Notes under the pieces: model-generated
The model's database searches: none
Told to the model about the DNA's origin: nothing
Seen by the model: the letters and a program-made list of their open reading frames with translations, nothing else
Program-made: the position numbers and the translations under genes
In this document: piece by piece, positions 37,700 through 38,315 of the stretch
Layout of the letters: the number at the start of each line of letters is the position of its first letter
How positions within the stretch are numbered: the stretch's first letter is position 1
Assembly (NCBI GenBank): GCA_947167345.1
Contig: CAMVHR010000027.1
Span: 1 to 38,934 of the forward strand
Origin: an uncultured Treponema sp.
GTDB lineage: Bacteria; Spirochaetota; Spirochaetia; Treponematales; Treponemataceae
Length of the DNA: 38,934 nt
Direction of reading: 5' to 3'

Positions 37700-38239
37700 T
37701 TATCGTTTATCTTCCATTACCTTGATGATTTCCCCGATGTACATTGTGTGGAAATCATCTTTTTTATAATTTTGATTCAAGATTTTTTCATCAGTAAAGC
37801 TGAACGGTGAAAATTCCTGCGCATAAAGTTTTCTACAGATAAGTACGAGACGAGCCTGTTTTATCCATGGAGTGTCGTTCGTATACTGAACATCTAGCTT
37901 TGCTGCTTTAAATTTGTCTCCGTCACGACCACTGTGGCTTCCGCAATAGTCAAGGGCTGTCTTGTATTTGTTTTCAGGCAGGATGCTGAGTGAAAATGTA
38001 TCTGTCTGATCAATTATTTCTTTCGTATAGCGTGAAGGTCGGATATAAATCGTAGCAACAGGCTTGTTCCACAAAAAACCTGTTCCGCCCCAACTGGCAG
38101 TCATTGTGTTTACTCTGCCTGTACGGACGTTGCCTTCTTCATCAACGTTTTTAGTACATGCTGTAACGAGCATCCAGTCTTTGCTAATCATTTTAAAAGG
38201 ATTGTCTGCAATTGCTTCAGGTCGGATATTCTTAAACAT
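37700..38239 (-). CDS. Flavin reductase-like (flavoredoxin) protein starting directly after tRNA-Ala
   Basis: A 179-aa FMN-binding split-barrel protein. MFKNIRPEAIADNPFK is the typical N-terminus of the family, followed by KDWMLVTA, NTMTASWGGTGFLWNKPVA (the FMN site) and IYIRPSRYTKE. Such proteins reduce flavins with NAD(P)H or act in electron transfer. The ATG at 38239 lies two bases after the tRNA 3' end (38242); the frame runs on into the tRNA to 38287, but that part is tRNA. There is no Shine-Dalgarno, so the mRNA may be generated by tRNA 3' processing. Confidence 0.87.
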   Translation of the reverse strand: MFKNIRPEAIADNPFKMISKDWMLVTACTKNVDEEGNVRTGRVNTMTASWGGTGFLWNKPVATIYIRPSRYTKEIIDQTDTFSLSILPENKYKTALDYCGSHSGRDGDKFKAAKLDVQYTNDTPWIKQARLVLICRKLYAQEFSPFSFTDEKILNQNYKKDDFHTMYIGEIIKVMEDKR

Positions 38240-38241
38240 AG

Positions 38242-38315
38242 TGGAGATGAGGGAAGTCGAATCCCTTACCTCTTGCATGCCATGCAAGCGCTCTAGCCAG
38301 ATGAGCTACACCCCC
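38242..38315 (-). tRNA. tRNA-Ala (GGC anticodon)
   Basis: A 74-base cloverleaf: the 7-bp acceptor stem pairs GGGGGTG with CATCTCC, including the G3-U70 wobble that identifies alanine tRNAs. The anticodon arm is CTTGC-ATGGCAT-GCAAG, with GGC at the anticodon positions, reading GCC/GCU. The T arm is AGGGA-TTCGACT-TCCCT, and the D arm contains GCTC. The discriminator is A73; the CCA end is not encoded (CTA follows). A promoter lies just upstream, and a protein start codon begins two bases after the 3' end. Confidence 0.96.

Follow-up and report, generated by a model that had tools for sequence, protein, structure and literature searches.

In a gut-type Treponema, a gene for a flavin reductase-like protein begins two nucleotides past a tRNA-Ala(GGC) gene on the same strand, within the 38,934-nt stretch of DNA analysed here (the window). 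We propose, with reasonable confidence, that RNase Z cuts the transcript after the tRNA discriminator, A73, and that this cut yields an essentially leaderless reductase mRNA, which is the mechanism of the initial annotation with the exonuclease removed. The tRNA and the reductase would be transcribed together from the tRNA promoter, and the single cut would free both the tRNA body, which then receives its CCA end, and an mRNA starting 5'-CU-AUG, on which the ribosome would initiate in the leaderless way that many other genes of this genome appear to use. The proposal builds on the observed gene order and spacing, the lack of an encoded CCA, the presence of an RNase Z gene, the position of the promoter, the conservation of the locus and the leaderless signature of the genome. 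Features of the locus are summarized in Table 1.

Table 1. Features around the tRNA-Ala/flavin reductase junction, in window coordinates.
Feature	Position	Strand	Details
Promoter of tRNA-Ala	38327..38356	-	-35 TTGACC 38356-38351, 18-nt spacer, -10 TATTAT 38332-38327
tRNA-Ala(GGC)	38242..38315	-	ARAGORN and Rfam/Infernal (55.9 bits); A73 at 38242; no encoded CCA
CT spacer, start of the tRNA trailer	38240..38241	-	U at +2; RNase Z expected to cut between 38242 and 38241
Flavin reductase-like gene, 179 aa	37700..38239	-	ATG 38239-38237, stop ends 37700; PF01613
DJ-1/PfpI-family gene, convergent with the reductase	37098..37673	+	TIGR01383, 159.8 bits
Rpn-family nuclease/putative transposase gene, divergent, upstream neighbour of the tRNA	38442..38934	+	TIGR01784, 84 bits; runs off the window

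The tRNA has an acceptor stem of seven pairs (GGGGGTG/CATCTCC), including G3-U70, and no other Ala(GGC) tRNA was found in the assembly. ARAGORN and Rfam/Infernal confirm the coordinates of the initial annotation, which had placed the reductase ATG after A73 and CT on the same strand. Its further claim, that the gap has no room for a promoter or ribosome site and that the only visible promoter lies upstream of the tRNA, is borne out as well. The upstream promoter scores 10 of 12 matches and has a TG preceding the -10 element, and a comparable layout of TTGAC... and -10 elements is found upstream of tRNA-Ala in sister and distant species. No -10-like hexamer is present immediately 5' of the reductase ATG, no Shine-Dalgarno (SD) sequence within 20 nt of it, and neither a promoter nor a terminator was found in the sequence between the tRNA and the reductase. 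The tRNA promoter thus appears to be the only plausible promoter for the reductase too. An assembly artefact was rejected as the source of the junction, because separate metagenome-assembled genomes (MAGs) carry the same one. The DJ-1/PfpI neighbour of the reductase is also present in distant species (L003, L072).

The 179-codon open reading frame matches the flavin reductase-like family PF01613 with 51.7 bits, against a Pfam gathering cut-off of 27, and it is by this match that we assign the putative flavin reductase to its family; none of the NCBIfam models matched the protein. Between the window gene and its orthologs in two sister species, dN/dS is 0.017-0.025 at dS 0.7-1.5. Purifying selection acts strongly on the reductase in each of the three sister species, and a chance reading frame is rejected by these values of about 0.02. 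For each of the 45 orthologs placed in a tree of the reductase, an ATG start is possible at the position corresponding to 38239 or a few residues from it. The N-terminus, called typical for the family in the initial annotation, is indeed conserved across the genus in residues 2-16, Met17 is not, and the start codon is well placed.

The genome encodes RNase Z (348.7 bits, cut-off 293). Among its 34 tRNA genes with readable trailers, none encodes CCA, 29 have a U at +1 or +2 of the trailer, and 12 have a trailer that starts with CT, which is the commonest start in the genome and the one found at tRNA-Ala(GGC). RNase Z of Bacillus subtilis becomes about 200-fold more active when a U lies no more than 2 nt from the discriminator (PMC10100781). 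The sequence features associated with maturation by RNase Z therefore coincide at tRNA-Ala(GGC), which lacks CCA and has a U near the predicted cut in a genome with the enzyme's gene. The initial annotation had attributed the mRNA to tRNA maturation by RNase Z or a 3' exonuclease. The RNase Z route fits, whereas a 3' exonuclease acting by itself would degrade the mRNA instead of creating it, so that the endonuclease is needed; other ways of finishing the tRNA 3' end, in which exonucleases follow a cut within the reading frame, would likewise destroy it. RNase Z leaves a 5' monophosphate on its product, whose stability may be below that of a primary leaderless transcript.

An mRNA starting with CU-AUG requires ribosomes that accept it, and leaderless initiation looks common in this genome. 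Our analysis covered 324 predicted genes in 360 kb of the same genome (C1-C6, L129-L146) and the window. In genes without SD sequence, -10 boxes that start between 16 and 11 nt upstream of the ATG reach 0.0353 per position, about four times the 0.0082 seen further upstream (Fisher p = 1.1e-10); the rate is 0.0022 in genes with SD sequence and 0.0039 at internal ATGs. Zheng et al. (2011, PMC3160421) recognise leaderless genes by a -10 box just before the ATG. Such a box is found in 36 of the 170 genes without SD sequence, or about 11% of all predicted genes, a figure that comes from a cruder method than that of Zheng et al. and includes some background. This value exceeds what the 2011 survey reported for spirochaetes, namely 1.8 to 6.9% leaderless genes in 6 of 18 genomes (PMC3160421). 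Many genes of the genome have neither an SD sequence nor a -10 box by the ATG.

The window reductase starts with AUG and has no SD sequence, as leaderless (TA-led) genes do. Neither the window clade nor the distant species that shares the junction has the -10 box that such genes carry some 12 nt upstream of the AUG, so that the gene is not TA-led, though it may work like a leaderless gene. The predicted mRNA 5' ends fold weakly, with 0 to -1.6 kcal/mol compared with a mean of -5.4 for internal 40-mers. A 2-nt leader left by a cut after A73 would be close to what the ribosomes of this genome seem to meet often. Leaderless expression in Escherichia coli is reported to drop with growing distance between the AUG and the 5' end (Krishnan 2010, as cited in PMC4448216), and even a 2-nt leader could therefore cost some efficiency. 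Nine reductase orthologs of other lineages have a leaderless layout with a promoter of their own, TAGAGT or TATAAT 12-15 nt before the ATG (L050, L051, L052, L054, L056, L007, L008, L104, L112), which suggests repeated turnover between SD-led and leaderless starts in one and the same gene.

In a survey of 200 Treponema genomes, 78 contain a reductase homologue; the closest named records are Treponema MAGs, chiefly from rumen and faeces. The 2-nt junction between tRNA-Ala and the reductase occurs in four species: that of the window, its two sister species G012 (TT) and G123 (CT), and G153 (AT), a distant Treponema from horse faeces with a reductase that is only 75% identical. All four known junctions have a U at +2 (CU, UU, CU and AU). 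The reductase tree places G153 apart from the window clade, but a topology that unites them is not rejected by an AU test (p = 0.215), and the junction may have arisen once or twice. Comparison of the junction in relatives, suggested as a check in the initial annotation, gives a divided answer: the exact 2 nt are kept in three other species, but not in most orthologs. About 20 of the 45 orthologs have a tRNA-Ala within 400 nt on their upstream side, with a gap mostly of 53 to 340 nt, which as a rule contains a spacer and a ribosome site and in some cases a terminator. Since an SD sequence precedes the reductase in 31 of the 45 orthologs, the gene does not need the 2-nt layout.

Several orthologs (L061, L068, L069, L103) have a tRNA-Ala, then a terminator-like hairpin, and then an SD sequence within about 10-35 nt. 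This distance leaves no room for a separate promoter, and hence the reductase is probably already read through from the tRNA in these genomes. Judged from these layouts, co-transcription of tRNA and reductase looks older than the 2-nt junction. The simplest history would start from an older unit of tRNA-Ala and reductase that lost its spacer, and we infer that a deletion probably removed the spacer together with the ribosome site and any terminator. In the same orthologs, expression of the reductase seems to require that transcription runs past the tRNA terminator, an attenuator-like arrangement.

A general pattern of a tRNA, 2 nt and an ATG was searched in the 200 genomes. It detected 34 other loci in the genus, in which the ATG opens reading frames of at most 84 codons; the pattern covers 17 of the 34 tRNAs of the window's own genome and misses both junctions of that genome, so that the survey is a sample and other cases are possible. 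An ATG 2 nt past a tRNA is not rare in itself; one that opens a long conserved reading frame is rare. A genus-wide habit of placing a reading frame 2 nt after a tRNA was rejected, as none of the 34 loci has one of more than 84 codons. The second junction of the genome consists of tRNA-Val(CAC) (C3:70910-70981), AA and the ATG of a conserved 153-aa reading frame (through 71442; L075 1501-2036), which is similar to one portion of a longer protein, ATPase-like and with a degenerate Walker B motif. Its orthologue in the sister species G012 (dN 0.24, dS saturated) is separated from the tRNA by about 40 nt, and the AA trailer of tRNA-Val(CAC) has no nearby U.

The junction might instead be a tolerated deletion, with other nucleases mainly maturing the tRNA, little intact mRNA being left and the reductase low or absent. 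The SD sequence and spacer retained in most orthologs, and the chance occurrence of 2-nt gaps before ATGs in the genus, would agree with such a loss. Against it stand the strong purifying selection on the protein of each sister species, with dN/dS near 0.02, the retention of the junction at synonymous distances of 0.7-1.5, and a genome that has RNase Z and whose own tRNAs do not encode CCA; we regard the deletion as unlikely, although it carries the most weight among the alternatives. It is improbable, too, that an uncut tRNA-mRNA chimera is translated by internal initiation at the AUG without SD sequence, which would make tRNA processing dispensable. Other kinds of SD-independent initiation may exist, given the many genes with neither SD sequence nor -10 box by the ATG. 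The AUG, however, is 2 nt from the folded acceptor stem, which should block binding of the 30S subunit, and the only G-rich stretches upstream (AGAGG, AAGGG) lie inside the tRNA, more than 20 nt from the AUG. Moreover, this is the sole Ala(GGC) tRNA found, and it must be excised anyway.

A promoter inside the tRNA gene could give a leaderless transcript directly, and promoter-made leaderless layouts do occur in orthologs of other lineages, but there is no -10-like hexamer where one would be required and the sequence at that place is fixed by the acceptor and T arms of the tRNA, which makes this explanation very improbable. Least probable of all is a misassigned start. M17 is an in-frame ATG, and translation from this later Met would give the N-terminus FKNIRPEAIADNPFK, but an SD sequence is absent before M17 and the genus-wide conservation described above covers residues 2-16, not M17. 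Formation of a leaderless mRNA by tRNA 3' maturation, by comparison, fits every indirect test that we made.

The arrangement recalls the tRNA punctuation of animal mitochondria, in which RNase P and RNase Z excise the tRNAs and leave mRNAs without 5' untranslated regions (Ojala, Montoya and Attardi 1981; PMC11469412, PMC5203842). In both, a tRNA directly abuts a reading frame; in the Treponema locus the tRNA 3' end adjoins the start codon on the same strand with a 2-nt gap in four species. Mitochondrial punctuation, however, acts on long polycistrons and is the main route there, whereas in Treponema it would concern one, perhaps two loci with a predicted cut, in a genome that also has SD-led genes and leaderless genes made by promoters. 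In bacterial tRNA-mRNA co-transcripts such as tRNA-tufB of E. coli, a tRNA and a protein gene are joined on one transcript, as proposed for the Treponema locus, with a spacer and a ribosome site after the tRNA. In this last respect they are like most reductase orthologs and unlike the 2-nt junction of the window. The TA-led genes of bacteria (Zheng et al. 2011, PMC3160421) likewise lack an SD sequence and have the AUG at or near the mRNA 5' end, as predicted for the reductase, but their promoter -10 element lies some 12 nt upstream of the AUG; at that place the Treponema locus has the tRNA, and its mRNA 5' end would come from a nuclease. For the leaderless mRNAs that MazF makes in E. coli, the 5' end comes from a ribonuclease instead of a promoter, as it would in Treponema (Vesper et al. 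2011, as presented in PMC3848588). MazF is a stress toxin and cleaves short sequence motifs; the Treponema locus would use constitutive tRNA maturation.

In the open literature covered by our searches, we found no description of a leaderless mRNA made by tRNA processing in bacteria. If the predicted cut takes place, the locus would be a clear example from bacteria of a translatable leaderless mRNA that owes its existence to tRNA 3' processing instead of a promoter, joining leaderless translation with tRNA punctuation, subjects that are usually kept apart. It would also suggest a possible origin of mitochondrial punctuation, as in a bacterium that already reads leaderless mRNAs one loss of a spacer would be enough. 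For gene finders, it would mean that a start codon may need neither an adjoining ribosome site nor an adjoining promoter. We can further speculate that the junction is a regulatory device, in which reductase mRNA is made only when RNase Z cuts pre-tRNA-Ala and the output of a redox enzyme follows tRNA maturation. Degradation of RNase Z under oxidative stress is reported for streptococci in one account (PMC8549757), and a link to tRNA maturation could accordingly carry a redox signal. We consider this role quite improbable; if real, it would be a bacterial form of mitochondrial-type tRNA punctuation used for control.

About a dozen of the 34 loci with an ATG 2 nt past a tRNA are tRNA-Ser(GGA) genes before the bacterial small SRP RNA, as identified by Rfam in the loci tested. 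Both RNAs are encoded on one strand, and 4-6 nt separate the tRNA from the SRP RNA (L086 1154-1344, L150 1403-1591, L197 175-365). This layout of tRNA-Ser(GGA) and a following RNA occurs in about a dozen genomes of the genus, again with the SRP RNA assigned by Rfam in the loci tested, and the distance in the window's own genome is 5 nt. Processing of the tRNA 3' end may thus also set the 5' end of the SRP RNA.
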